The notes under the pieces are model-generated. The model was given only the letters and a program-made list of their open reading frames with translations. It was not told where the DNA came from and did not search any database. A stretch of 64,000 bases of DNA, from NCBI RefSeq assembly GCF_014489635.1, contig NZ_CP060828.1:8048001-8112000 (forward strand), read 5' to 3'. The first letter of the stretch is position 1; every line of letters starts with the position of its first letter. Source of the stretch: Streptomyces roseirectus. GTDB lineage: Bacteria > Actinomycetota > Actinomycetes > Streptomycetales > Streptomycetaceae. Below, in pieces: positions 2,937 to 44,817 of this stretch. A program made the position numbers and the translations under genes.

Positions 2937-4193
2937 TTGGCCGGTGCAGTGCCGGAGTTGTCGAGGGCGGAGGTGGCTGCCTGGAAGGCGGCGGGGACGC
3001 CGGTCGTCGATCTGCTGGGGCGGGCCCACCGGCTCGGGCCGGTCAGTGGGTTCCGGCTCGGGGACCGGCCCGTCGTCCTCGTGACCGACCCCGAAGCCGT
3101 CCGGCACGTGCTCGCGCGACATCCGGACCGGTACGTCAAACGCTCCCACCGGATGCGTCACCTCCTCGGCGACGGGGTACTCACCGTCGACGGGCCCGCC
3201 TGGCGGGGGCAACGCAGGCTGTTCCAGCCCCAGTTCACCGTCCAGGGCGTCCGGCGCTACGAGCGGGCGATGCGGGACGCCGTCGCGGACGTCGCCCGCG
3301 CCTGGAGCGCGTCGGCCCGTACCGGCGAGCCCCGGGACCTCGTCGCCGACATGCGGCGCTTCACCATCGACGTGATCTGGCGCGCCACGACCGGACTGCC
3401 CCTCGACGACACCACCCACCGCCAACTCCTCGCCGCCGCCCGCATCGTGGCCGCGGTCGCCGCGATCGGGCCCGCCGACACCGCCGACCTGGAGCGCGAC
3501 CTCGCGGAGGTCGACGCCGCCGCCGGACGCGCGGTCGCCGCCGCCCGCGCCAACGGCGACCCCGGCATCCTCGACGCGCTGCTCGACACCGTCGAACTCC
3601 CCGACCCCGACGGGCGGTTGGTCCGCGACAACTTCGTCACCTTCCTCGTCGCCGGGTACGAGACCACCGCCGCCACGCTCAGCTGGCTCCTGCTGCTCCT
3701 GCACGACCACCCGGGGGACCGGGAGTGGGCGCTCGCGCAGGGGCCCGCCGGCTCGGCCGCGCGGACGGCCGCGATCCGGGCGCTGATCAGCGAGACCCTG
3801 CGGCTCTACCCGGCGGCGCTGCTGCTGTTCCGCGACACCACCGAGGACGACGTCCTCGCCGGGCACCGGATCGGGAAGGACACCACCGTCGCCCTGTGCG
3901 CCTACCTCACGCACCGGATCCCCCAGTTGTGGCCGGATCCCGAGCGGTTCGAGCCCCGGCGATTCCACGAACCGGCGCCCCGGCCTGCCCTCGGTACGTA
4001 CTACCCGCTCGGGCTCGGCCCCCGCACCTGCCTCGGCGCCCAGTTCACCCTCCAGGAGATGACCCTCCTCGCGGAAACCCTGCTGCCCGCCTTCGAGTTC
4101 GCCCTTGTCGGGGAGCGGCCCCGGCCCGCGTTCGACATCACGATCCATCCCGACGGGCCGCTCCTCGCGCGGGTGAGCGCGCGGGGCGAGTGA
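2937..4193 (+). CDS. cytochrome P450
   Basis: A soluble heme monooxygenase of about 418 residues. The I-helix oxygen-activation motif AGYETT, the ExxR motif in SETLRLYP and the heme-ligand loop PLGLGPRTCLGAQF (Cys near residue 365) are all intact. The spacing fits class I bacterial P450s that take electrons from a ferredoxin. The TTG at 2937 is preferred because GGGAGG lies five bases upstream; an in-frame GTG at 2877 would add 20 residues but has no ribosome site. No ferredoxin or biosynthetic genes adjoin it, so the substrate is unknown. Confidence 0.85.
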   Translation: MAGAVPELSRAEVAAWKAAGTPVVDLLGRAHRLGPVSGFRLGDRPVVLVTDPEAVRHVLARHPDRYVKRSHRMRHLLGDGVLTVDGPAWRGQRRLFQPQFTVQGVRRYERAMRDAVADVARAWSASARTGEPRDLVADMRRFTIDVIWRATTGLPLDDTTHRQLLAAARIVAAVAAIGPADTADLERDLAEVDAAAGRAVAAARANGDPGILDALLDTVELPDPDGRLVRDNFVTFLVAGYETTAATLSWLLLLLHDHPGDREWALAQGPAGSAARTAAIRALISETLRLYPAALLLFRDTTEDDVLAGHRIGKDTTVALCAYLTHRIPQLWPDPERFEPRRFHEPAPRPALGTYYPLGLGPRTCLGAQFTLQEMTLLAETLLPAFEFALVGERPRPAFDITIHPDGPLLARVSARGE

Positions 4194-7446: not shown

Positions 7447-9543
7447 TCAGAAGTCTTCGGCGCCCAGGGACCCGGACGCATGAGACCGAGGTCCCGACGT
7501 GGTCCCGGGACCGGCGGGGAACCTGGCGTCCACGACCGTCCCGTCCACACTGCTGGTGAGGGCGAACGACCCGCCCAGCTCCTCCGACCGCTGTGCCATG
7601 GACCGCAGCCCCACCCCCGGGCAGTCCCGGTGGGAGGGAAAGCCGTCCCCGTTGTCCGTGATCCGCAGGGACACCCGCCCGTCCGACGCCGACACCAGCG
7701 CCTGCGCGCGGTCGGCGTGCGAATGCCGGACCACGTTGTTGAGCGCTTCCGAGGCGATCCGATACACCGCCACCTGCAGCGCGGCCGGCAGCGGCGGCAG
7801 CGGGTCGGGCTCCACCGCCACCCCGATGCGCAGACTGCGGCTGCTCAGATGGTCGGCGAGCTGCCGCAGCGCGCGCGTGAGGTCGGCGCCGTCCAGCGCG
7901 GCCGGCGCGAGCCCGTCGGTGATGTGCCGCAGCTCCTTGATCGCATACCCGATCCCGTCGGACACCTCCGACAGCGGACGCGCCACCTCCGCGCCCGCGC
8001 CCCTGCGCACCGCGTCGACCTGGAGGCGCAGTCCCGACAGTGCGGGACCGAGCCCGTCGTGCAGCTCGTGCCGCAGCCGGCGCCGCTCCTCCTCGCGCGC
8101 GTGGATGAGCTGTTCCCGGCTGCTCTGGAGATCCTGGTACAGGCGCGCGCCCGCGAGCGCCGGAGCCGCCTGCCCGGCGAGCACCTGGACCGCTTCCCGG
8201 TCCTGCGGGTCGAGAGCCAGCTCACCCGGGCGCGGCGCCACGCACAGCCGTCCGATCTCCTCGCCCCGGTACAGGAGCGGGAACTCCTCCGCCACCGGCC
8301 CGGGATCGTGGATCCGTACCAGCTCACGCGGCCCGTGCCGGGTGTCGACCGTGACCGAGACGGCGGGCAGCCCCAGCACCCCGACGACGGCGTCTCCCAG
8401 CAACTGAGGCGTGTCCCCCGGATCGGGCGCACGGCTCAGCCGCTCGGCCAGCCCCCGCACCACCTGGTACGGGTGCGCGCGATCACCGTAGAAGTAGTGG
8501 TCCATCACGCGCGCCGCCCACCGGAACGTCGGCCGCAGCAGCACCCCCAGCAGCAGACCCAGCGCGCAAGCCGGCAGCAGCCGCGCCGTGTCCCGGTGGT
8601 GCGGGGCCAGGCTCAGCAGCACACCCGCCGCCGCCATGGCCGCCGCCAGCAGCAGGAACGTCAACAGCAGCGTCGCCAGCACCCGGCGCGCGGCGCGATC
8701 GAGGTACCACGCGCGTGCGCGCGCGCTGACGTAACCCAGACACAGCGGCCACACCAGCGCCGCCGCGTAGCGCACCGGACGGTCCACGGCCTCCGGGATG
8801 TCCACCCGCAGCGTCAGCAGCGCCAGCACGGACCACACCGTGTACGGCACCGCGACCCACCAGGTGTCCCGCAGGTACTGCCGGGACCGCAGGCTCTTCA
8901 CGACCATCACCAGCAGCGCCAGCACCTGCGCCACCTCGATCCCGGTCGGGAACACCCACCGGGAGACCGGCTCCGTACGGTGCCAGAACGCCGCCCACGC
9001 CCCCTGGGCCATCGGATTGCGCACTCCCATCCACCCGTCGACCAGCGTCCACGCGTAGAGCCCCTGGGCGACGCACAGCAGCAGCATGACGACGACGTAC
9101 AGGCGCGCCCGCACCGAACCGAGCCGCCCGTCCGGCAGCCAGACCGGCTGGGTGAGGATCAGCAGGCCGAACAGCATGTAGAAGACCATCCCGGCCACAC
9201 AGGCGACCCCGCCGAGCGAGGCGGGCAGCAGACCCAGCGTGATGGTGATCAGCAGGACGTCGGCCACCGTCACGGTCAGCGCGGCGGTCATCAGCAGCCA
9301 GCCGAACACGGCACCCGTCGGGCGCGCGGCGAACAGCATCCCGGACAACGCGAAACCGAAGCCCAGCAACAGGTTCTGCACCGAGTAGTGGAACTGGTCG
9401 TAAGCCGTCACCGTGTCCAGATGGATGAGCGTGAGCACCGCCCACACCACCCCCGACAGCGCGACGACCGCGCACACCAGATACGCCGGAAGCAGCTCAC
9501 GCCCCGTGCCCGGGACCTTGGTGCCGTTCACCTCCGCGCCCAT
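7447..9543 (-). CDS. NarL-type sensor histidine kinase with ten-helix membrane domain
   Basis: 698 residues. About ten hydrophobic segments fill residues 18-340, followed by a GAF-like region (about 360-465), a HisKA_3 dimerisation helix with phospho-acceptor His495 in RHELHDGLG, and an HATPase domain with an N-box (ASEALNNVVRHSHA) and G-box DNGDGF. The large multi-span input domain resembles the architecture of ComP-like sensors. The ATG at 9543 follows GAGGAG. It lies 84 bp downstream of the response regulator and is its likely partner. The signal is unknown; a membrane-borne or peptide ligand is plausible. Its position beside the cyclitol genes suggests it controls them. Confidence 0.88.
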   Translation of the reverse strand: MGAEVNGTKVPGTGRELLPAYLVCAVVALSGVVWAVLTLIHLDTVTAYDQFHYSVQNLLLGFGFALSGMLFAARPTGAVFGWLLMTAALTVTVADVLLITITLGLLPASLGGVACVAGMVFYMLFGLLILTQPVWLPDGRLGSVRARLYVVVMLLLCVAQGLYAWTLVDGWMGVRNPMAQGAWAAFWHRTEPVSRWVFPTGIEVAQVLALLVMVVKSLRSRQYLRDTWWVAVPYTVWSVLALLTLRVDIPEAVDRPVRYAAALVWPLCLGYVSARARAWYLDRAARRVLATLLLTFLLLAAAMAAAGVLLSLAPHHRDTARLLPACALGLLLGVLLRPTFRWAARVMDHYFYGDRAHPYQVVRGLAERLSRAPDPGDTPQLLGDAVVGVLGLPAVSVTVDTRHGPRELVRIHDPGPVAEEFPLLYRGEEIGRLCVAPRPGELALDPQDREAVQVLAGQAAPALAGARLYQDLQSSREQLIHAREEERRRLRHELHDGLGPALSGLRLQVDAVRRGAGAEVARPLSEVSDGIGYAIKELRHITDGLAPAALDGADLTRALRQLADHLSSRSLRIGVAVEPDPLPPLPAALQVAVYRIASEALNNVVRHSHADRAQALVSASDGRVSLRITDNGDGFPSHRDCPGVGLRSMAQRSEELGGSFALTSSVDGTVVDARFPAGPGTTSGPRSHASGSLGAEDF

Positions 9544-9627: not shown

Positions 9628-10347
9628 CTACCGTTCCTCGCCGAGGCCGGCGTCCCGCGCGCGGGCGACGGCCTCCGCGCGCGTGGCGACGTGCAGCTTC
9701 TCGAAGATGTGCGTGACGTGGTTGCGGACGGTCTTCTCCGACAGGACGAGCTCCCGGGCGATCCTGCGGTTGTCGAACCCGCGCGCGATGAGTCCCAGCA
9801 CCTCGCACTCGCGCGTGGTGAGCGCCGGGAACAACTGCTCGGCGTCCCGCCGCCGCGAGCCCGCGACCAGCGTGCTGAGCCGCGCCGCCACCCCCGCCCC
9901 GAACACCGCGCCGCCCGCCGCGACCGTCCGCACGGCGTGCAGGACCTCCTCGGCGGCGGCGCCCTTGACGATGTACCCGCGCGCGCCCGCCTGGAGGGCG
10001 GCCAGCAGGTCGCCCTCGTCGTCGGACATGGTCAGGGTCAGCACGGGCAGCCCGGGGTGCTCCTCGGCCAGCGAGCGGATCGCGGAGATGCCGGAACCGT
10101 CGGGCAGCCCCAGGTCCATGATCACGACGTCCGGGAGGTGCGCGGCCACCGCCTCCGGCACCTGCGCGACGGTCTCCGCCTCCGCCACGACCACCACCTC
10201 GCCCAGGCTCTCCAGCGCCGACCTCAGCCCGCTGCGGAACAGTGGATGGTCCTCGACGACAAGCGCCCGCAGCACGGACCGGTCCGCGGGCGGAGCGGCA
10301 TCCTCGTTCACTCTCGAAAGGTAATCCCTTCGGGGGTGGTTCGGCAT
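9628..10347 (-). CDS. NarL/LuxR-family response regulator
   Basis: An N-terminal receiver (acidic pair in VVEDHPLF, phospho-acceptor Asp78 in IMDLGLPDGSG, conserved Lys in YIVKG) is followed by a C-terminal LuxR helix-turn-helix (LTTRECEVLGLIARGFDN through KTVRNHVTHIF). The ATG at 10347 gives 239 residues. A GTG at 10311 (227 residues) and longer upstream ATGs are possible; the longest would run into the repeat tract. It precedes the sensor kinase in an operon. The heptamer repeats just upstream of its start are candidate binding sites for this protein or for whatever controls it. Confidence 0.88.
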   Translation of the reverse strand: MPNHPRRDYLSRVNEDAAPPADRSVLRALVVEDHPLFRSGLRSALESLGEVVVVAEAETVAQVPEAVAAHLPDVVIMDLGLPDGSGISAIRSLAEEHPGLPVLTLTMSDDEGDLLAALQAGARGYIVKGAAAEEVLHAVRTVAAGGAVFGAGVAARLSTLVAGSRRRDAEQLFPALTTRECEVLGLIARGFDNRRIARELVLSEKTVRNHVTHIFEKLHVATRAEAVARARDAGLGEER

Positions 10348-10361
10348 ATTTTCATCCGGTA

Positions 10362-10431
10362 CCTCACGCATCACCTGTGACACATCACGCGTCACACATC
10401 ACATGTCATGCATCACGCATCACACCTCACG
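10362..10431. repeat. tandem heptamer tract, ten units
   Basis: Exactly ten consecutive 7-bp units: CCTCACG, CATCACC, TGTGACA, CATCACG, CGTCACA, CATCACA, TGTCATG, CATCACG, CATCACA, CCTCACG. The tract fills the space between the regulator start and the dehydrogenase, and it covers the dehydrogenase stop codon. Related heptamer pairs recur at 11575-11860 and before the cyclase gene. Confidence 0.8.
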
Positions 10432-11548
10432 GCATCAGCAGCACCGGCTTCACCGCCTCCCCCCGCACCGCCGCCGCCCCCGCCTCCTCGATCGCCTCGA
10501 ACGGGAACACCGACACGAGCGCGTCCACCGGCAGCCGCCCCGCCAGGTACAGCTCCACCAACGCCGGCACGAACACCCGGGGCACCACGTCGCCCTGGTT
10601 GACGCCGACCACCCGAGGCCCCCGGTCCAGCATGGTCGGGACGTCGAACGCCGCCTCCGTCCCGGCCGGCGGCGCCCCGACCACCCCGCACACGCCGCTC
10701 ACCGCCAGCCCGTCCACCGCCTGCCGCAGCACCCTCGGCACCCCGCTCGTCTCCAGCGCCCGCTCCGCCCCGCGCCCGCCGGTGAGGTCCCGGACGGCCG
10801 TCAGGGGGTCGTCCTCGTCCGGGTTGACGGTGTCGGTCGCCCCGAGCCGGCGCGCGAGCGCCAGCCGGCGCGGATCCGGATCGACGGCGATCACCCGCGT
10901 CGCCGGGGTCAGCCGCGTCGCCATCACCGCGGCCAGCCCCACCGACCCGACGCCGTGCACCACGAGCGTGTGCCCCGCCTCCGGGCGCAGCACGTTCAGC
11001 ACCGACCCCGCCCCCGTCTGCACCCCGCACCCCAGCGGCGCCAGCACCTCCGGCGGCAGCCCCGCCGGCACCGGCACGACATTGCGCTCACCGGTCAGCG
11101 CGAGCGTCGAGAACGACGACTGCCCGAAGAAGTGGCCGTGCAGCACCGAACCGGCGTGCCGGCCCGTCCCGAACACCGTCGCGCTCCCGTCCAGCCTGCC
11201 CCCGCCGAACAGGTTCAGCGCCGGCCAGTGCGCGCACCGCACCGGACGCCCGGTCAGGCACGCCGGACACCGGCCGCACGACGCGAAGCTCAGGACGACG
11301 CTGTCGCCGGGCACCACCGACGTGACCCCCGCGCCCACCGCCTCCACCGTCCCCATCCCCTCGTGCCCCAGCACCGCCGGGACGGGGAACGGGGTGTGCC
11401 CGGCGCGGACGCTCAGGTCGGTGTGACAGATCCCGGCGGCCTGCACGCGGACCAGGACCTCGTCGGGACGAGGATCGTCGACACGGACCTCCTCCAGGGC
11501 GAAGGGGGCGCCGTGGGCGCGGACGACGGCGGCGGTGGCGGTGTGCAT
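10427..11548 (-). CDS. zinc-dependent NAD(P) alcohol dehydrogenase (aryl-alcohol type)
   Basis: A 373-residue medium-chain dehydrogenase. Catalytic zinc ligands are visible in GICHTDL and LGHEGMGTVE, and the structural zinc loop in SCGRCPACLTGRPVRC (Cys spaced 2, 2 and 7). The Rossmann motif is VVHGVGSVGLAAV, followed by an acidic strand end (VIAVDPDP) favouring NAD. Overall it resembles benzyl/aryl alcohol dehydrogenases. The ATG at 11548 is preferred over upstream in-frame codons because it starts at the conserved N-terminus. It is separated from the cyclitol operon by 332 bp of repeats but shares strand and repeat motifs with it. A role oxidising or reducing a cyclitol hydroxyl is inference. 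Confidence 0.85.
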   Translation of the reverse strand: MHTATAAVVRAHGAPFALEEVRVDDPRPDEVLVRVQAAGICHTDLSVRAGHTPFPVPAVLGHEGMGTVEAVGAGVTSVVPGDSVVLSFASCGRCPACLTGRPVRCAHWPALNLFGGGRLDGSATVFGTGRHAGSVLHGHFFGQSSFSTLALTGERNVVPVPAGLPPEVLAPLGCGVQTGAGSVLNVLRPEAGHTLVVHGVGSVGLAAVMATRLTPATRVIAVDPDPRRLALARRLGATDTVNPDEDDPLTAVRDLTGGRGAERALETSGVPRVLRQAVDGLAVSGVCGVVGAPPAGTEAAFDVPTMLDRGPRVVGVNQGDVVPRVFVPALVELYLAGRLPVDALVSVFPFEAIEEAGAAAVRGEAVKPVLLMP

Positions 11549-11594
11549 GGCGGGTCTCCCGAGAGGGGGCGATATATCACATGTCACGCATCTT

Positions 11595-11632
11595 GGGGTG
11601 TGGGGGATGTGGGGGGATGGTGGGGGATGGGG
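11595..11632 (+). other. G-quadruplex-forming tract
   Basis: Five runs of four to six guanines separated by two to five bases (G4-TGT-G5-ATGT-G6-ATGGT-G5-AT-G4), starting 47 bp upstream of the dehydrogenase ATG. The G-rich strand is the template strand for that gene. This fits the classic quadruplex rule with strong runs. Folding in vivo is not shown. Confidence 0.7.
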
Positions 11633-11654
11633 TGGCTGTCGGGGCTGCGTAATA

Positions 11655-11876
11655 CATCACGCGTCACGCATCTCCGTCGTGGGGGAGTGCTGTATTACGC
11701 AGGGGGCCTTCCGCTGGGTGAAGTGCTGCATCACGCATCACGTGCTTTCGCGGGGCGGTGTGGTACATGACGCATCACGCGCCGCTGCGGGGCCGGGTGG
11801 TACATCACGCATTACGCACCGTTGCCGGGCCAGGCGGCACATCACGCATCACGCATCGCGCGCCCCACCCCGACGC
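11655..11876. repeat. 37-bp tandem repeat array, six degenerate units
   Basis: Units begin at 11655, 11692, 11729, 11766, 11803 and 11840, a fixed 37-bp period. Each opens with a heptamer pair close to CATCACGCATCACG, except the diverged unit at 11692 (TATTACGC), then a GC-rich stretch ending near GTGGTA. The best copies (11729-11839) agree over most of their length. An additional heptamer island sits at 11575-11592. A perfect 10-bp inverted repeat, GCGTAATACA (11647-11656) against TGTATTACGC (11691-11700), lies over the first unit. The array fills the space between the GMC stop and the quadruplex/dehydrogenase promoter. Confidence 0.75.
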
Positions 11877-11880
11877 TCCT

Positions 11881-13443
11881 TCACGGCAACACCCCTCCCT
11901 CCCGCACCACCCGCAACGCCTGCGCGGCGATCGTCAGCGTCGGGTTGACCGCCGCGGACGACGGGAAGAACCCGCCGTCGACGACGAAGAGGTTCGCCAC
12001 CTCGTGGCTGCGGCAGTACGGGTCGAGGACGGACCGCGCGGGATCGGTGCCGGCGACGGTCGTGCCGCACTGGTGGCCGGTCGCCTCGACGCCCAACCGG
12101 CGTGAGAACACGAGGGGATAGCCGGCCCGGCGCATCATCGACGCGGCGGCGCGGACGAGTTTGTGGTGGGCGCGGGTGTTGGTGGGGCGCCAGCGGATGG
12201 TGACGTCGTCGGCGCCGGGCCCCGGCAGGACGCGGTTGTCCGGATCGGGCAGGTCCTCCGACATCACCCACCAGTCGACGCTGCGCGAGGCCAGCGCTCC
12301 GAGCAGCCGCCGGGGCAGCCGGGGATGCGCGGCGGCGAGCGTCGCCCCGTACACCTTGCCCATCAACTGGAGTGTTCCCAGCGGGTGTTGACCCTGCGGG
12401 CCGCCCGGCAGGTAGAAGTCGTTGACGGCGAGCGTCTTCTGGAAGGTCACCGGGTTGCGGCGGCGCGGATCGACCGCCATCAGCACGGAGTTGTTGTGCA
12501 GCATGAGGTTGCGCCCGACCAGCCCGCTGCCGTTCGCGAGCCCGTCGGGGTGCGCGGCGCCACCCGAACGCAGCAGCAGGACAGCCGAGTTGACGGCCCC
12601 GCACGACACCACCACGGTTCCGGCCCGGAGTTGGACCGCCCGCCCGTCCCGCACGGCGTCGACGGAGGTGATCCGCCGCCCGCCGGGGTCCGTGCGCAGC
12701 CGGACGGCGCGGGTGCGGGTGAGGAGGCGGACCGTCGGGGTGCGCAGCGCGGGCCGCAGGGCGCGCGTCTCGGCGTCGCTCTTGGCGCCGACCTGGCAGG
12801 GGAAGGCGTCGCAGGTGGCACAGCGTTCACACGCCCCCTCGGGCGCCAGGTCGACGCCGAGTTCGACGGGGTGGGGGTGCAGGCCCTGTGCCGTGAGCCG
12901 GTCGGCGAGGGCGGCGATGACCGGCTCGTGCGGCACCGGCGGCCAGGGGTAGGGGCCGCTGCGGGGCGGGCCGCTCGGGTCGGTGCTGTCGGCGCCGTGG
13001 ACGCGGTAGAGGTGTTCGGCCTCCGCGTAGTACGGCTCCAGGTCGCCGTAGGTGAACGGCCAGGCGGGCGAGGTGCCTTGAAGGTGTTCGACCGTCCGGA
13101 AGTCGCTCGCGCGCAGCCGGGGCAGGGCGGCGCCGTAGACCTTGGTGGTGCCGCCGACGCCGTAGAACCCGCCGGAGGTGAAGGGGCGGCCGTCGGCCGT
13201 GTGCCAGATGCCGGTGTTGTGGTAGCGGTGGCCGACGAACACGGCCTCCGGGGAACGGTTCTCGGGCTCGCGGGGCAGGAAGTCGCCCCGCTCGACGACG
13301 AGTACGCGCGCGCCGGTCGAGGCCAGCGCCCACGCGGTCGTCGCGCCTCCGGCGCCCGAGCCGAGGACGAGGACGTCGGCCTCGTACACGTCCTGCTCCC
13401 GCGTGACGACCGGCGGCGATCCTGGACCCCAGACGCCGGTCAT
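11881..13443 (-). CDS. GMC-family FAD-dependent oxidoreductase
   Basis: A 520-residue flavoprotein with N-terminal ADP-binding motif VLVLGSGAGGATTAWALA, the GMC substrate-domain feature YGVGGTTKVYG, a Cys-rich insertion (CERCATCDAFPC) and the C-terminal region GHQCGTTVAGTDP through NPTLTIAAQA. The cysteine insertion and C-terminus resemble sugar/polyol and sterol-type GMC enzymes. Family members oxidise alcohol groups to carbonyls. The ATG overlaps the stop of the VOC gene (ATGA), giving translational coupling and making it the last gene of the five-gene operon led by the cyclase. A cyclitol intermediate is a reasonable substrate, by context. Confidence 0.85.
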   Translation of the reverse strand: MTGVWGPGSPPVVTREQDVYEADVLVLGSGAGGATTAWALASTGARVLVVERGDFLPREPENRSPEAVFVGHRYHNTGIWHTADGRPFTSGGFYGVGGTTKVYGAALPRLRASDFRTVEHLQGTSPAWPFTYGDLEPYYAEAEHLYRVHGADSTDPSGPPRSGPYPWPPVPHEPVIAALADRLTAQGLHPHPVELGVDLAPEGACERCATCDAFPCQVGAKSDAETRALRPALRTPTVRLLTRTRAVRLRTDPGGRRITSVDAVRDGRAVQLRAGTVVVSCGAVNSAVLLLRSGGAAHPDGLANGSGLVGRNLMLHNNSVLMAVDPRRRNPVTFQKTLAVNDFYLPGGPQGQHPLGTLQLMGKVYGATLAAAHPRLPRRLLGALASRSVDWWVMSEDLPDPDNRVLPGPGADDVTIRWRPTNTRAHHKLVRAAASMMRRAGYPLVFSRRLGVEATGHQCGTTVAGTDPARSVLDPYCRSHEVANLFVVDGGFFPSSAAVNPTLTIAAQALRVVREGGVLP

Positions 13444-13973
13444 GACGCGGCCCTCGGCGGGTCGTAGAGGCGGACCGGCGTCTCGTCGTGGAACGGCAGG
13501 CGCTCGGGGATCTCGGACAGCTCCAGATGGAGGCCGAAGGGGGTGCGCAGGTAGATGAACCGGACGCCGGCGATGGGCCCTTCGGCGACGGTCTGCGGCT
13601 CACCGAGGGCAACCACCCCGTCGTACGCGGTGAGATGGGCCAGCGACGCGTCCAAGTCCTCGGTGCCCAGGGCGAGATGGTGACCGCCCCAGTCGCTGTT
13701 GCGGGGGTAGACGCGGCGCTGGTCGGGGGAGGCGTACTCGAACAGCTCGACGTTGGTGACCGGGCCGAGGCGCAGCATCGCGATGTGGGCGACGGCGCTG
13801 CGGTGGACGCCGAGCTGGCGCAGCATCCACAGGCCGGCCGCGTCCTCGACCGGGCCGGTGCGGTAGGCGAGTTGGGCGCCGAGCGCGTCGGTGAAGAAGG
13901 CGACGGCCTGGTCGAGGTCGGGCACGGTGTAGGCGACGTGGTGGACGGCGCCGACGCCGGGGACGGTGGTCAT
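13440..13973 (-). CDS. VOC-superfamily protein, candidate valiolone epimerase (CetB-like)
   Basis: 177 residues with two beta-alpha-beta-beta-beta modules. The metal ligand positions are H11/H12 (VHHVAYTVPDLDQAV), Glu in NVELFEY, His in GGHHLAL and Glu151 in LHLELSE, the pattern of glyoxalase/VOC metal enzymes. The ATG follows AAGGAG and overlaps the upstream stop. In cetoniacytone biosynthesis the VOC protein CetB epimerises 2-epi-5-epi-valiolone, the product of an EEVS. Coupling to a cyclase gene here suggests the same reaction. Family membership is clear; the specific activity is inferred from context. Confidence 0.75.
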   Translation of the reverse strand: MTTVPGVGAVHHVAYTVPDLDQAVAFFTDALGAQLAYRTGPVEDAAGLWMLRQLGVHRSAVAHIAMLRLGPVTNVELFEYASPDQRRVYPRNSDWGGHHLALGTEDLDASLAHLTAYDGVVALGEPQTVAEGPIAGVRFIYLRTPFGLHLELSEIPERLPFHDETPVRLYDPPRAAS

Positions 13974-14368
13974 GACGGCTCCTTGAGGGAGGCGCGGGCG
14001 GTGCTGGGGGTGCGGGGCGGCAGGGCCCGGGTGACGGCGGCGGGGCCGAGCGTCAGGCACAGCAGCCGGGCGCCGTGCCGGCCCGCGGTGAGGGTGGCGG
14101 CGCCGCCGTGCGGGGCGAGGACGAGGCCGCCCGCGGTGAGCGGGACGGGGCGCCGGTCGGCGTGCACCGTCCCGCCCAGCACGTACCAGACGGTCTCGGT
14201 GCCGCCCCGGCCGGCCGGCTCCCAGCGGGTGCCGGGGGCCAGTTCGACCTCGTCGAACGCCTCGCACTCGCTGTGCAGCATCCCCCGCCGGGCGAGACAG
14301 CGGACGGCCGCCCGCTCCTCGCCGGGCCCGAACAGGACGGCGCTCAGCGGCCCGTTGTGGACGATCAC
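13970..14368 (-). CDS. small cupin-fold protein
   Basis: 132 residues from a GTG at 14368, chosen because GGGAG lies six bases before it; a TTG at 14374 is the alternative. The middle reads as a cupin barrel (ELAPGTRWEPAG, then TVWYVLGGTVHAD), but the HxH and Glu metal ligands of catalytic cupins are not evident, so a binding or isomerase-like role is possible. Its stop overlaps the ATG of the VOC gene. It belongs to the five-gene cyclitol operon. Exact function unknown. Confidence 0.65.
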   Translation of the reverse strand: MIVHNGPLSAVLFGPGEERAAVRCLARRGMLHSECEAFDEVELAPGTRWEPAGRGGTETVWYVLGGTVHADRRPVPLTAGGLVLAPHGGAATLTAGRHGARLLCLTLGPAAVTRALPPRTPSTARASLKEPS

Positions 14369-14402
14369 GGCCAACTCCCTTTCCTGCGACGTGAGTCGGG
14401 TG

Positions 14403-15128
14403 TCAAGCGGCGCGTTGTTCCGTCGGCAGCGGCACGTCCAGCACCGCGTGGAAGAACTCCAGGCCGCCGTCGCCGGCCCACAGCCGCACCGCCCCGCCCA
14501 GCGGCAGGGTCAGCGCGGTCCCCGAGGCGAGGGCGACCTCGCGGTCGGCGGTGCGGGCGGTGCCCGTGCCGCTCAGCACGAACACGGTGTGCTCGGTGCC
14601 GCGCGCCGCGAACTCCACGCCCGCGTGCGGCGGAAGGTCCTGGACGTGGATGGTGCGCAGCGGCCCGGTGAGGACGCTCTGGGCGTCCAGCGGGCCGTGG
14701 GCACGCAGATCGCGGACGACGATGCTGTTCACGGAAGTCTCCTGCTCCAGGGGCCGGCGGGGCCGGGGGAAGACGGCGGGCAACTCCACCACCAGCCAGG
14801 ACAGCGGCCGTTGCCCCGTGTTGTGCAGCGCGTGCCGGGAGCCGATCCCGGTGAGGACGGCGTCCCCGGCGCGCACCCGGTGCGCCGTGCCGTCGAGGTG
14901 GATCTCGCCCCGGCCGCGCAGCAGGAAGTACAACTCCTCGGTACGGGAGTGCAGATGCTCCCCGCTGACCCCGCCGGGCGGCAGCCAGGCCCACTCGACG
15001 GCCTCCCAGCCGCCGTACAGGCCGGTCCGCCGCGCCAGGCAGGTCCAGCGGGAGATCCCGTCCGAGTCGTGCACGCCGTGCACCACGGCGGGCGAGTGGA
15101 CGTCGGCCACCACGAGTGCGTCACGCAT
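14403..15128 (-). CDS. bicupin protein
   Basis: 241 residues with two cupin domains. The N-terminal barrel has a complete-looking metal site (EHLHSRTEELYFLLRGRG, then GSRHALHNTG). The C-terminal barrel (HAGVEFAARGTEHTVFVLSG) lacks the paired histidines. Its ATG lies inside the end of the cyclase gene (ATGCGTGA overlap), so the two are translationally coupled. Cupins of this kind act as sugar isomerases, epimerases or dioxygenases. Here it probably acts on or near the cyclase product, but the reaction cannot be read from the sequence. Confidence 0.72.
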   Translation of the reverse strand: MRDALVVADVHSPAVVHGVHDSDGISRWTCLARRTGLYGGWEAVEWAWLPPGGVSGEHLHSRTEELYFLLRGRGEIHLDGTAHRVRAGDAVLTGIGSRHALHNTGQRPLSWLVVELPAVFPRPRRPLEQETSVNSIVVRDLRAHGPLDAQSVLTGPLRTIHVQDLPPHAGVEFAARGTEHTVFVLSGTGTARTADREVALASGTALTLPLGGAVRLWAGDGGLEFFHAVLDVPLPTEQRAA

Positions 15129-16335
15129 GGGACCGCACCTCCTTCGCGGCGCGCGCCAACTTCTCGGCCGCGCCGGTGATCTCACGATCCGTCAGGTCGT
15201 TCACGAACACCGCGTCACCGATGCCGACCGGCAGCGGCAGGCGCTGCATGCCATCGCGGTGACGGACGGTGTCCGCGAGGGCGGAGCCAAGCAACTCCGG
15301 CTCCATCAGGGGGTGGTGGACCGGCAGGCGCAGCGCGCGCATCGTGTCGAGTACACGCGTGCACTGACGGTCCGTCATGAGGCCGCGGCCACGGGCGATC
15401 ACGGTGGTCAACGCCATGTCGAGGTTGACCGCCTCGCCGTGCAGCAGCGCGGGCAGGGCGCGCATCTCCAGCGTCGGACTGAAGGTGTGGCCGTAGTCGA
15501 CGACCCGCTCCAGCCGGTGCTCCCACAGGTTGTCGTGGAGTTCTTCGAGCATCCCGTGCACCGCGCGGGCCAGTACGTGATGTGCCGTGGTCCGCAGCGG
15601 GCCCGCCGTCTGGAAACGGCCGGCCAGCAGGCGCTCGCCGCTGCTCTCCAGCAGGTCGAACAGGTCACGGTCCTTGATCAGGGCGATCTTCAGGATCTCG
15701 GCGAGCCCGTTGCCGATGTGCCGCTCGTCCAGCGTCGCGAGGAACGCCGGGTCGAGCAGCGTCTCGACGGCCGGGTGGTACGTCCCGAGGCGGTTCTTGC
15801 CGCCGCCGAAGTTGACGCCGGTCTTCGCGCCGACACCGGCGTCCACCAGCCCGATCAGGGTGGTCGGGACCCGGACGTACGGGGTGCTGCGCCGGTACAG
15901 GCTGCACGCGAGGCCGACGATGTCCAGCAGCACCCCGCCGCCGACGGCCACGACCGGCTCGCGGCGCCGGTCGAGGCCGAAGCGGTCCATCGCGTCGACC
16001 ACGGAGTACACCGAGTCCATCGTCTTCAGTCGCTCGTGCGCGGGCAGGACGTGGATGCTGTATGACGCGTGACGCGCCGCCTCGCAGTAGGCGCGCAGCG
16101 CGTCGCCGTACAGCAGGTCCACGTGCTCCTCGACGACCAGCAGCCGTCGGGCCGGCGTGCTCTCGCCCTCCGGGAGGCCGGCATGGGCGAGGGCGGGGTT
16201 GCGGGGGTCCAGGACGCCGGGGGCGAACCGGACCCGGTAGCTGACGGGCTTCGCGGTGGCGACGGTCCAGCTGCGCGCCGGTCCCGGGCCGTCCGTGGTG
16301 GTGAGGCCGTGGGTGGTGGGAGGCGGGAAGGGCAT
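15121..16335 (-). CDS. sedoheptulose-7-phosphate cyclase, 2-epi-5-epi-valiolone synthase type
   Basis: A 404-residue dehydroquinate-synthase-fold enzyme. NAD and substrate motifs are VGGGVLLDIVG (residues 131-141), RVPTTLIGLVDAGVGAKTG (155-173) and NFGGGKNRLGTYHP. The zinc ligands are Glu213 in GLAEILKIALI, His in VDYGHTFSPTLE and His in LLHGEAVNLDM. VDYGHTFSP and the GGGKNRLG loop match sugar phosphate cyclases of the EEVS group (ValA, AcbC, CetA) rather than primary dehydroquinate synthase. The product would be a C7-cyclitol ketone from sedoheptulose 7-phosphate. The ATG at 16335 follows GAAGGA. The reading frame stays open upstream to 16662, but that part is Arg/Ala-rich and unlike the family. 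First gene of the five-gene operon. Confidence 0.85.
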   Translation of the reverse strand: MPFPPPTTHGLTTTDGPGPARSWTVATAKPVSYRVRFAPGVLDPRNPALAHAGLPEGESTPARRLLVVEEHVDLLYGDALRAYCEAARHASYSIHVLPAHERLKTMDSVYSVVDAMDRFGLDRRREPVVAVGGGVLLDIVGLACSLYRRSTPYVRVPTTLIGLVDAGVGAKTGVNFGGGKNRLGTYHPAVETLLDPAFLATLDERHIGNGLAEILKIALIKDRDLFDLLESSGERLLAGRFQTAGPLRTTAHHVLARAVHGMLEELHDNLWEHRLERVVDYGHTFSPTLEMRALPALLHGEAVNLDMALTTVIARGRGLMTDRQCTRVLDTMRALRLPVHHPLMEPELLGSALADTVRHRDGMQRLPLPVGIGDAVFVNDLTDREITGAAEKLARAAKEVRSHA

Positions 16336-17195
16336 GACGGGTCCTTCGTGGTTCGGACGGCCGTGGGAGGGGTCGCGCGGGCAGTGGTGTGTGATGTTCC
16401 ACTGACGGTGACGAGGCGCCCACGCTCCGCACGAGGCGGCCGGGCGGGCCGGTTCCACCTCGTGCGGGCGGGGCTGGGAGGCCGGACCGGCGGGCACCCC
16501 CACCGGCCGCCGCCGCGCCGCACCCCTACGGCGCCCCCGTCGGCGGCCGGCGTCGCGGGCAGCTCGCACGGAGCGCCCCGTCCGGTCCGGCTGGTCGGTG
16601 TGCACGGGTTCCGGGAGAAGCGGAGCCGTCTCGCCGGTGGCCGGGGTTTCAGTGCTGTATGACATGTGACCCACCACCTTCCGGAAGCTCCCTCCGAGAG
16701 CGCCCCTCTCGGAACCTCGCTCACTCAAGGTCCCCCGCCCGACGTCCCGACGGCGTGAGTCCCCGGCCCTGTCACGGCCCCGCATCGCGCCGGGCCGGCC
16801 TGGGACCGGGGTGGGGCCGGGGCGTGAGGAGCGGGTCCGGGAGCGAGGTGGGATCGGGGTCCCGGGAACGGGGGAGGGGCGTCAGGGATGTCCCTTGGGG
16901 GACGGCGGCTCGGCGTGACGTCCGGGGTGCCGCGGTGCCTCGTTTCCGTCGTCCCCGCGCCCTGGGGAGAGAGCCCGCGCGGACTCGGGCTGTGGAGCGG
17001 GCCAGGTCAGGCGGACTCGTGGGTCGCCGACTTCGAACTCGCCTTGCGCGCAGTGGACTTGGCCGCCTTAGGTGCAGTGGCCCTCGTGCCGGCCATGAGG
17101 AGAGCGCCACGGCTCAATCCCCGGACACCCCCTTGACGCCCCGGAACCCTCGATCGACACTCGAACCGGGAATCCTAGTGAACAGGTAGGGAATC
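16336..17195. other. 860-bp intergenic region upstream of the cyclase operon
   Basis: Holds the probable promoter of the cyclase operon. At 16651-16672 a GTGCTGTATGACATGTGACC segment repeats, in reverse orientation, the TCACATGTCA core found before the dehydrogenase (11577-11586) and in the heptamer tract. From about 16740 to 17000 it is GC-rich without convincing genes. A possible 29-residue ORF is listed separately. Just before 17196, CCTAGTGAACAGGTAGG (17174-17190) has CCTA/TAGG dyad ends and may be a control site for the leader peptide. Confidence 0.5.
17007..17096 (-). CDS. possible 29-residue Lys/Ala/Ser-rich peptide
   Basis: A short ORF beginning MAGTRATAPKAAKSTARK and ending ATHESA. 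The composition resembles low-complexity, histone-tail-like basic peptides seen in actinobacteria. No ribosome-binding site precedes the ATG. It is included only because codon third positions are reasonably GC-rich and the region otherwise lacks genes. Low confidence. Confidence 0.25.
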   Translation of the reverse strand: MAGTRATAPKAAKSTARKASSKSATHESA

Positions 17196-17403: not shown

Positions 17404-18285
17404 ATGACCGCAACACCGCTGACCGCCCACGCGTACGACCGCCCGGCCCCCGCCTTCCGGGGCCGCATCGGCGGCGACGCCCGCAGCGGCCACTACGCCG
17501 TGCCGCGCCGCTACCGCCTCCACCTGTCCACCGCCGACCCCGACGGCCTGCGCATCGCCGTCACCCACAGCCTCCTCGGCCTCGACACGGCGTGTCCGCT
17601 CACCTTCCTGCCCGCCGTCCCCGACTGTCCCGACGGCGGACACGCGAGCCTGCGCCCGCTGTACGAGGCGAGCGCGCACCGCTACCGGGGCCCGGCCCTC
17701 GCGCCCGTGCTCAGCGACGACTGGTCCGGCCGCATCGTCTCCACCCACGGCCCCGACATCGCCCGCGACCTGGCCCGCCGCTTCGGCGGCGGCCGTCCGT
17801 CGCTGTACCCGTGCGGCACCGAGGCGCGGATCGAGACGGTGGAACGCCTCTGCCGCCGGGCCGAGCACGCCGCCCAACTCGCGGGCGACGCACAGGCGTC
17901 GGAGCGCGAGCGAGCCGACGCCCTCGACGGCCTCCTCGACGCGCTCGGCGGCCTGGAGCAACAGCTCGACGACGACGTCCATATGGCGGAAGGTCAGCTC
18001 ACCGCTGCCGACGTCGACCTGTGGGTCACCCTCGTCCAGCTCGACACCGTGCACCGCCATCACCTCGACGCCGCCGCCGTCCAGCGGATCGCCGCCCACC
18101 ACGCCCTGTGGGCCCGCGCCCGCCGCCTCACCGCCCACCCGGCGTTCGGCGCGCACCTCGACCTCGACGGCATCGACCGCCGCCACCGGGCCCGCTGCCA
18201 GGGCCTCGAAGCCGCCGGCTCGGCTGTCCAGATCCTGGACTGGGCCGCGTACGCGACCGAGGAAAACCGGACCCACCAGCGCTGA
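17404..18285 (+). CDS. glutathione S-transferase-like protein (Xi/GHR type) lacking the CPWA motif
   Basis: 293 residues matching the C-terminal helical domain and overall layout of glutathionyl-hydroquinone reductases (SRGxI-like SGRIVSTHGPDIARDL, SLYPCGTEARIETVE, AADVDLWVTLVQLDTV). In family members a catalytic CPWAHR follows the first strand (…RYHLY). Here the corresponding stretch is RLHLSTADPDGLRIAVTHSL, without Cys. Actinobacteria use mycothiol rather than glutathione, so a changed activity or a binding role is plausible. GGGGAGAACC precedes the ATG. Placed between two leader peptides in the sulfur region. Confidence 0.7.
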   Translation: MTATPLTAHAYDRPAPAFRGRIGGDARSGHYAVPRRYRLHLSTADPDGLRIAVTHSLLGLDTACPLTFLPAVPDCPDGGHASLRPLYEASAHRYRGPALAPVLSDDWSGRIVSTHGPDIARDLARRFGGGRPSLYPCGTEARIETVERLCRRAEHAAQLAGDAQASERERADALDGLLDALGGLEQQLDDDVHMAEGQLTAADVDLWVTLVQLDTVHRHHLDAAAVQRIAAHHALWARARRLTAHPAFGAHLDLDGIDRRHRARCQGLEAAGSAVQILDWAAYATEENRTHQR

Positions 18286-34104: not shown

Positions 34105-35364
<1,260 letters not shown>

Positions 35365-43418: not shown

Positions 43419-44817
43419 TCAGCACCCCACCCGGGCCCCGAACTCCCCTTCCTCCCAAGCCCCCTTGGCCACCACCTCCGCGCACACCTCCACCAGCCGG
43501 TCCACGTCCCGCGTGTTCGTCCCCACCCCCATCGACGCCCGCACCGCCCCCTGAGCCCGGACCGCGAGTTGGGCGAGGTACGCGTCGACGTCCGCCGGCG
43601 CACCCCGCAGCAGCGCCGCCCGCACCACCTCCGGGGTCATCCCGTTGGCCTCCTCGGCGACCCCGGGGTTGCAGAAGCAGCCGGTGCGCAGGCTGACGCG
43701 GGCGCCGGCGGCGGCCCGCTGGAGGAGCCGTTCGTCGAGCGGAGTGCCGTCCGGCCGCAGGAGGTTGAAGGCGACGGTGGGCCCCCGGCCGTCGGTGGTG
43801 AGGGGCCCGAGGACGCGGACGGCCGGGGCGCCGTCGGGGTGGCGCAGCGTGGTGAGGCCGGCCAGGAGGCGGGCGGTGAGCGCCGCGACGTGGCGGCGGA
43901 CGGCGCCGGCGCCCAGCGCGCGGTGCCAGGCGGCGGCGGCCGTCACGTCGGGCAGGGCGAGGAAGGGCAGGGTGCCGTCCTCGAACCCCTCCGGCGGCGG
44001 GGCGGGCAGATGCCAGTCGGTGTGGGCGGACGACGCCCGCACGGTCCCGCCCGCGAACCAGGGCCGGCGCAGGGCGGCGAGGGCGTCGCGGCGGGCCACC
44101 AGGCAGCCCACGCCCGACGGGAACCCGGTGATCTTGTACCAGGACAGCGCGACGAAGTCCGCCGGGACCTCCGTCAGGTCGAGCGGCCCGGTCGGCAGGT
44201 ACGCGGCGGCGTCGAGCAGCACCCGCCACCCCCCGGCGCCGCGCCTCGCCGGCCCACTCCAGCGGATGCCGCACGCCGGTCGCGTTGGACTGCGCCGGGA
44301 ACGCGAACAGCCCCCGCCCGCCCGCGTCCAGACACGCCGTCACCGCCGCCGGATCCGTGCGGAAGTCGGGGCCCGGCGGCACGACCCGCACCGGCGCCCC
44401 CGCGCGCGCCGCGTAACGGCGCATCCCCAGTACCGAGTTGTGGTCGTCCCCGAGGAACGCGAGCGGCGCGCGCGGGCCGAACGGGAACGCCTCCGCGACC
44501 AGCCGCAGGGCCCCGGTCGCGTTGGCCGTGAAGACGACCGTGTACGCCTCGCGCGGGGCCCGGCAGAACGCCAGGACCGCCTCGCGGGCCTCCTCCACGA
44601 GCCGGGTCGAGGCGAGGGAGGCGGGGCTCGCGGTGTGCGGGTTGCCGTACACGCCCGCGGTGAGGCGGGCGGCGCTCGCGCGGACCAGGGAGAGCGGGGC
44701 CGGCGCCGCGCCGGTCCAGTCCAGATAGGCGTGGTCCTCGGCGTCCAGGTACGGGAATTCCGACTCCCGCAGGAAGCCGAGAGCATCTGTTCGGTCGGGT
44801 GCGGATGTGGCCGGCAT
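43419..44817 (-). pseudogene. class V aminotransferase/cysteine desulfurase-like gene with frameshift
   Basis: The start at 44817 (MPATSAPDRTDAL, GAGAGG upstream) encodes an aminotransferase class V N-terminus through FAFPAQSNATGVRHP. At a run of six C (44229-44234; G6 in the sense strand) the reading frame changes, and the family sequence continues in another frame as VLLDAAAYLPTGPLDL, the PLP-lysine region LSWYKITGFPSGVG and the C-terminal GCFCNPG. Both halves together would make a full protein of about 465 residues. Either the gene is inactive, or the base run is a sequencing error, or phase variation occurs. It resembles molybdenum-cofactor sulfurase/cysteine-lyase-like enzymes. It adjoins the butyrolactone island. 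Confidence 0.8.

Follow-up and report, generated by a model that had tools for sequence, protein, structure and literature searches.

A recurrent EEVS-cupin gene cluster in Streptomyces roseirectus and its possible C7 ring product

The pathways to acarbose- and validamycin-type compounds begin with 2-epi-5-epi-valiolone synthase (EEVS), and an EEVS-type gene standing beside two cupin genes raises the question of what such a locus makes. We addressed this question in a 64,000-nucleotide stretch, hereafter the window, which spans positions 8,048,001-8,112,000 of the single-contig 9.95 Mb genome of Streptomyces roseirectus. On the minus strand, the order of transcription is cyclase, bicupin, small cupin, VOC protein, GMC oxidoreductase, zinc alcohol dehydrogenase (ADH), response regulator and sensor kinase. 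Judging from sequence comparison, we lean slightly towards reading this operon as a biosynthetic cluster under regulation, in which two linked cupins help to channel sedoheptulose 7-phosphate into a C7 ring that is oxidised and dehydrated. Its genes are as follows.

15121-16335, minus strand: EEVS-type sedoheptulose 7-phosphate cyclase, 404 aa, assigned by its score against ValA (4p53), its active-site positions and a tree
14403-15128, minus strand: bicupin with an intact N-terminal metal site (H58, H60, E65, H99), 241 aa, PF07883 at E 7e-22
13970-14368, minus strand: small cupin without the HxH metal motif, homologous to the N-terminal domain of the bicupin, 132 aa, GTG start (a TTG start at 14374 is also possible)
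13440-13973, minus strand: VOC protein, putative CetB-type 2-epi-5-epi-valiolone epimerase, 177 aa, PF13669
11881-13443, minus strand: GMC-family FAD oxidoreductase, 520 aa, PF00732/PF05199
10427-11548, minus strand: zinc ADH, putatively of the aryl/benzyl-alcohol type, 373 aa, from scores against 5tnx and 1f8f
9628-10347, minus strand: NarL/LuxR-type response regulator with an uncertain start, PF00072 and PF00196
7447-9543, minus strand: HisKA_3-type sensor histidine kinase, PF07730 and PF02518

All six enzyme genes of the operon proposed in the first-pass annotation were found on the minus strand, and the three overlaps it had reported are exact. The bicupin start overlaps the EEVS stop (ATGCGTGA at 15121-15128), while ATGA overlaps link the small cupin to the VOC gene (13970-13973) and the VOC gene to the GMC gene (13440-13443); the gap between bicupin and small cupin is 34 nt. 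The coupling does not extend to the ADH gene, which in this genome is separated from the GMC gene by 332 nt of repeat-rich DNA, compared with at most 82 nt (to the start of the ADH match) in seven relatives measured. As had also been stated, the hallmark genes of C7N-aminocyclitol pathways (aminotransferase, cyclitol or other sugar kinase, glycosyltransferase) were not recognised among the open reading frames (ORFs) between 6.1 and 18.3 kb, which were inspected by eye, with Pfam searches for nine proteins.

The cyclase scored 470.7 bits against ValA (4p53), versus 257.7 bits against desmethyl-4-deoxygadusol synthase (DDGS; 5tpr) and 123.9 bits against the best dehydroquinate synthase. It is identical to ValA at all 12 chosen active-site positions, five of which are different in the DDGS row, including D to A and H to T. 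These positions cover at most 12 of the 14 sites of the active-site fingerprint described for such cyclases in the available text of PMC4426668. A 55-row tree, from which L020 (stop), L041 (short), L014-L017 (repeats or near-repeats), P0218 and the pseudo-cyclase discussed below were left out, placed the window cyclase in a ten-row clade (100/98) that, with two further rows, joins the ValA group (85/92). The rows of the two cluster types defined below, A and B, formed two sister clades (100/99 and 100/98). With its single DDGS row on a long branch within an open fork, the tree by itself cannot tell EEVS from DDGS, and it is the residues and scores that carry the EEVS call. The phylogeny proposed as a check revealed no grouping with dehydroquinate synthases; a dehydroquinate synthase or DDGS identity was ruled out by bit scores, active-site residues and tree taken together. 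A separate AroB-type gene, 33% identical to the window cyclase, lies elsewhere in the genome. An EEVS-type enzyme, as first annotated, is supported, and we presume that it forms 2-epi-5-epi-valiolone.

The first-pass annotation had a single copy in view; comparison revealed a family of conserved clusters whose tailoring genes are exchangeable. Among 295 Streptomyces genomes searched, the bicupin adjoins an EEVS gene in all 15 that bear it, and six EEVS loci taken for contrast (L056-L061) gave no bicupin match. Nine distinct Streptomycetaceae loci (the window, L003, L005, L006, L042, L043, L094, L099 and L100) carry the type A set of cyclase, bicupin, cupin, VOC, GMC, ADH, regulator and kinase; L044, L045 and L046 repeat L005, L006 and L008 and were not counted. 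In type B (L004, L007, L008, L009 and L010), an extradiol-type dioxygenase occupies the ADH position. Two other loci (L095 and L096) gave no GMC match and contain two bicupin-cupin pairs, and in L098, L101 and L103 the GMC gene is replaced by an Archangium-kind dehydrogenase, a bicupin of a second type and a short-chain dehydrogenase (SDR). L097 and L102 have a similar layout that is truncated or incomplete in the sequence retrieved. In the two Archangium loci themselves, a GMC gene precedes a row of cyclase, bicupin, cupin, dehydrogenase, bicupin, SDR and VOC genes. The top score for the L012 copy of their dehydrogenase was to scyllo-inosose 3-dehydrogenase, with threonine dehydrogenase equal to it and neither cut-off reached; by eye, a glucose-6-phosphate dehydrogenase gene lies alongside in L012.

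The Streptomyces loci L047-L055 combine cyclase, bicupin, VOC and, except in L053, small cupin with other neighbours. In one of them, L051 (8984-16008), a KAS III-like gene, possibly for an acyltransferase acting towards an esterified cyclitol, comes after EEVS, bicupin, cupin, dehydrogenase, SDR and VOC.

Against the S. acidiscabies copy, dN/dS among the six enzyme genes was lowest for the cyclase (0.10) and highest for the small cupin (0.50), and it was 0.33 for the kinase; the regulator was left out of this table. As judged from these ratios, purifying selection acts on all six enzyme genes. Since gene order and neighbours recur in many genomes and these ratios are low, we regard the row as more than a chance arrangement. 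The comparisons indicate that the cupins are constant partners of this EEVS branch and that the operon is a member of a conserved, apparently undescribed bacterial gene set.

The claim of two cupin proteins was upheld for both, with the qualification that the small one has no Pfam match, even at E 0.1. Its cupin nature is supported by a profile-profile match to the bicupin and by a middling-confidence model with cupin structural matches, from which it appears to be a bicupin relative without the HxH motif. In the bicupin, which has a predicted structure with a pLDDT of 90, the 3His/1Glu residues H58, H60, E65 and H99 are invariant across 31 aligned sequences. The two-cupin fold and Z score fit BacB and AerE, at 11-13% identity and tied with other bicupin families. 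Naming an activity from the fold was dropped, as many bicupin families tie and the Pfam and NCBIfam names are family-level or below cut-off.

Turning to the oxidoreductases and their partner, the VOC protein is 63% identical to P0289, which its source names a 2-epi-5-epi-valiolone epimerase and which is not known to have been assayed; the EEVS-VOC pairing highlighted at first pass is upheld by this relationship. Its candidate metal ligands (H11/H12, E76, H98/H99 and E151) are invariant in 18 sequences. Among solved structures, the GMC protein comes nearest to glucose dehydrogenase (131.6 bits), followed by fructose dehydrogenase (110.2 bits). For the ADH, the highest score was obtained with 5tnx, which has no specific name (360 bits), followed by benzyl alcohol dehydrogenase 1f8f, the best named match (322 bits), and the next sequence at 194 bits. 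By its nearest named relative, the ADH is of the aryl/benzyl alcohol dehydrogenase type.

In the pathway we propose, EEVS would turn sedoheptulose 7-phosphate into 2-epi-5-epi-valiolone, a step supported by the sequence comparisons above. The VOC protein, to judge from P0289, may epimerise the carbon adjacent to the ketone, and the GMC flavoenzyme, nearest to sugar dehydrogenases, may create a second ring ketone; in the variants, an inosose-dehydrogenase-like medium-chain dehydrogenase and an SDR would take its place. The metallo-bicupin, probably with its HxH-less paralogue, would then eliminate water and shift a double bond to yield an enone, quinol or aromatic C7 core. BacB and AerE carry out water removal and double-bond shifts on other six-membered rings. 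The aryl/allylic ADH may finally oxidise or reduce the exocyclic CH2OH carbon. Chemical reasoning adds that, with two ketones and one elimination, the ring could tautomerise to an aromatic polyol.

The regulator and kinase stay beside the cluster in type A and type B relatives, in agreement with the dedicated regulator pair first annotated, and from this conserved linkage we infer that the pair controls the cluster. Between cluster genes, at about 10360-10426 and 11640-11870, lie heptamers of the TGATGCG type repeated in tandem, with a spacing of 37 nt between some of the units. A 13-base pattern of these repeats is absent from 30 related loci apart from one stray match (L056), and an 18-base pattern recurs in four more regions of the same genome (near 1.298, 1.429, 1.707 and 1.711 Mb). 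The repeats were ruled out as response-regulator operators on these grounds and are read as lineage-specific rather than conserved.

Upstream of the cyclase gene, a further feature was assigned.

16386-16565, minus strand: putative relic of the C-terminus of a pseudo-cyclase, a gene that is open in related clusters, recognised through a link to L003 and a shared motif

The pseudo-cyclase is a degenerate dehydroquinate synthase-like protein (L005 7715-8803 and equivalents) found beside EEVS in most sister clusters, possibly as a non-catalytic cyclase subunit. It lacks the Zn ligands in the one sequence checked (P0363). Its gene is stop-free beside EEVS in 9 of the 11 distinct Streptomyces type A and B loci and occurs in 8 of 10 EEVS regions from other genera (a partial match in L100). 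At E 1e-15, the pseudo-cyclase or a relative was detected in 20 of 295 Streptomyces genomes and was not found in the window genome; some of the 20 lack this cluster, so the protein is not EEVS-specific. In L003, tblastn identified a C-terminal relic at 8438-8740 (E 1e-5). Window positions 16406-16899 are 76% identical to L003 8181-8656, and the same motif was located in the window; since tblastn picked up no pseudo-cyclase in the window stretch, the relic call here rests on L003. As a part of the working set in S. roseirectus, the pseudo-cyclase was dropped, being a relic in this lineage, without Zn ligands and with relatives off-cluster.

Farther out, a glutathione-S-transferase-like gene (17404-18285) diverges from the cluster, and an 84% counterpart adjoins the S. 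acidiscabies cluster; it was excluded as a member because, among the loci compared, it neighbours the cluster only in S. acidiscabies. Two cytochrome P450-like ORFs were noticed by eye at 2949-4193 and 34105-35364.

Several observations weigh against a cupin-dependent biosynthetic cluster as proposed. The link between bicupin and EEVS is not absolute, as two bicupin regions, L104 and L069, lack a cyclase within 19.5 kb, and the EEVS rows with a bicupin do not form one clade but require 4 changes on the tree. The structural matches of the bicupin do not discriminate between isomerase/dehydratase bicupins on the one hand and pirins, quercetinases or ureidoglycine aminohydrolase on the other. The role given to the small cupin is a guess, and its gene, at a dN/dS of 0.50, is the least constrained. 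This copy has also lost the pseudo-cyclase kept by most sister clusters, and the lineage-specific repeats part its GMC gene from its ADH gene.

These last features would fit a degenerating copy, lost in this lineage and now making nothing, which we consider improbable: the pseudo-cyclase is reduced to a relic and repeats separate GMC from ADH, but the six enzyme genes are open, their dN/dS values against S. acidiscabies lie between 0.10 and 0.50, and metal and catalytic residues are kept. Even less credence is given to a cetoniacytone-type C7N aminocyclitol cluster with its aminotransferase elsewhere in the genome. EEVS and a VOC protein related to a source-named epimerase would suit it, as would the DegT aminotransferase in the cluster of a relative (L068); however, no aminotransferase was recognised in the conserved block here, nor on visual inspection of the ORFs of L004, L005 and L008, and the nearest aminotransferase-like ORF noticed by eye (43419-44222) is about 27 kb away. 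A non-aromatic keto-carbasugar of the gabosine/COTC kind is a possible, if not favoured, product. It would need EEVS, epimerisation and one dehydration, with the GMC and ADH enzymes moving the ketone and the cupins only dehydrating. Gabosines are C7 Streptomyces carbasugars regarded as derivatives of sedoheptulose 7-phosphate, the ADH family accepts allylic alcohols too, and the KAS III-like gene of L051 could add an acyl group, as COTC needs. The available text of PMC10717218 credits S. lincolnensis with four C7-cyclitol carbasugars and a predicted C7-cyclitol cluster. This product leaves the dioxygenase at the ADH position of five sister loci unexplained, and none of the gabosine paper titles among the matches listed names a gene cluster.

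The same dioxygenase lends weight to an aromatised ring, a reading we find rather unlikely. In it, GMC oxidation and cupin dehydration would give a polyhydroxybenzyl alcohol or quinone, which the ADH would convert to the aldehyde in type A and the dioxygenase would open in type B. The nearest named relative of the type A ADH is, as noted, a benzyl alcohol dehydrogenase, and an alignment to homoprotocatechuate 2,3-dioxygenase (1f1r) shows that the type B dioxygenase keeps what we take to be the extradiol ligand and catalytic positions. A search of 296 genomes of the class turned up relatives of this dioxygenase in 12, one of them the genome of L069; nine others gave ten regions and two fell outside the sample. 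An FAH-family gene adjoins the dioxygenase relative in all ten regions (9 of the 12 genomes).

L069 (1937-11200) is a catabolic-looking locus with a sugar-type importer (by eye), FAH, SDR, an extradiol-type dioxygenase and a bicupin split in two ORFs. Its layout suggests that the bicupin makes the substrate of the ring-cleaving dioxygenase, a catechol, from a cyclitol-like compound. Against aromatisation, it is a single EEVS-free locus, its split bicupin is 38-43% identical, its FAH protein is nearest to a sugar-acid hydrolase model and below cut-off, and no FAH homologue was found in the 13 type A and B loci searched (E 1e-3). More speculative still is the full proposal that the EEVS-cupin-cupin-VOC core plus an oxidase forms a shikimate-independent route from sedoheptulose 7-phosphate to aromatic or quinone C7 compounds, with a polyhydroxybenzaldehyde or quinone as the type A end product and cleavage of the ring by the extradiol dioxygenase in type B.

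We retain the oxidised, dehydrated C7 ring as the preferred reading. The "different oxidised cyclitol product" of the first-pass annotation is set apart from the validamycin and acarbose gene sets as it had said, although "oxidised cyclitol" may be too narrow because five sister loci carry an aromatic-ring-cleavage-type dioxygenase at the ADH position. Combined with exchangeable oxidoreductases, the EEVS-cupin-cupin-VOC core recurs in Streptomyces and further genera of the same family, and also in other actinobacteria and in myxobacteria. It would open up a family of C7 natural products if its product is new, and aromatisation by the cupins would make it a way from sugars to aromatic compounds that bypasses shikimate. 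With six enzymes here, clusters of this kind are small enough for the question to be answered with purified proteins.

In the literature searched on EEVS, cetoniacytone, gabosine, C7-cyclitol and epoxyquinomicin, this gene order was not found, consistent with the earlier expectation; subscription papers lay mostly outside the search and an earlier description is possible. The same literature yielded no paper pairing valiolone with a cupin or with a glyoxalase, and none linking BacB, cupin and isomerization. The available text of two Amycolatopsis reviews (PMC8037709, PMC8532670) gives no epoxyquinomicin cluster.

Among known systems, BacB (bacilysin) and AerE (aeruginosin) differ from the window bicupin, which, besides the low identity noted above, is tied with DUF861/ureidoglycine aminohydrolase and pirin-type bicupins. 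Gabosines and COTC are C7 ketocarbasugars of Streptomyces; their link to the window is hypothetical, and we know of no gene cluster for them. Validamycin is closer, in that ValA shares the cyclase family and active site and lies in a neighbouring tree branch. The validamycin pathway also has kinase and aminotransferase steps. It uses the pseudoglycosyltransferase ValL (PMC12041759, available text), whereas the window has cupins, GMC and ADH. Cetoniacytone A shares the EEVS and VOC pairing, the window VOC protein resembling the named epimerase P0289. In its cluster, CetA is the EEVS and CetB the VOC epimerase. The amine of cetoniacytone is acetylated by the NAT protein CetD (PMC11213898, available text), and neither an aminotransferase nor a NAT protein was recognised in the window. 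The predicted C7-cyclitol cluster of S. lincolnensis is likewise fed by sedoheptulose 7-phosphate but, likened here by description only, gives dehydration to an AcbL-like protein, AcbL being called a cyclitol dehydratase (PMC10717218, available text).

A more elaborate relative, L068 (674-14981), combines an EEVS-cupin fusion, two bicupin-cupin pairs, VOC and GMC with DegT aminotransferase, AMP ligase, KAS III-like and chorismate-binding genes. Epoxyquinomicins of Amycolatopsis are C7N epoxyquinols bearing a salicylamide, and L068 is a candidate for a salicyl-aminocyclitol, epoxyquinomicin-like compound; the window differs in having neither nitrogen nor salicylate genes. Set beside these systems, the S. 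roseirectus cluster is a variant of the C7-cyclitol cluster type already known.

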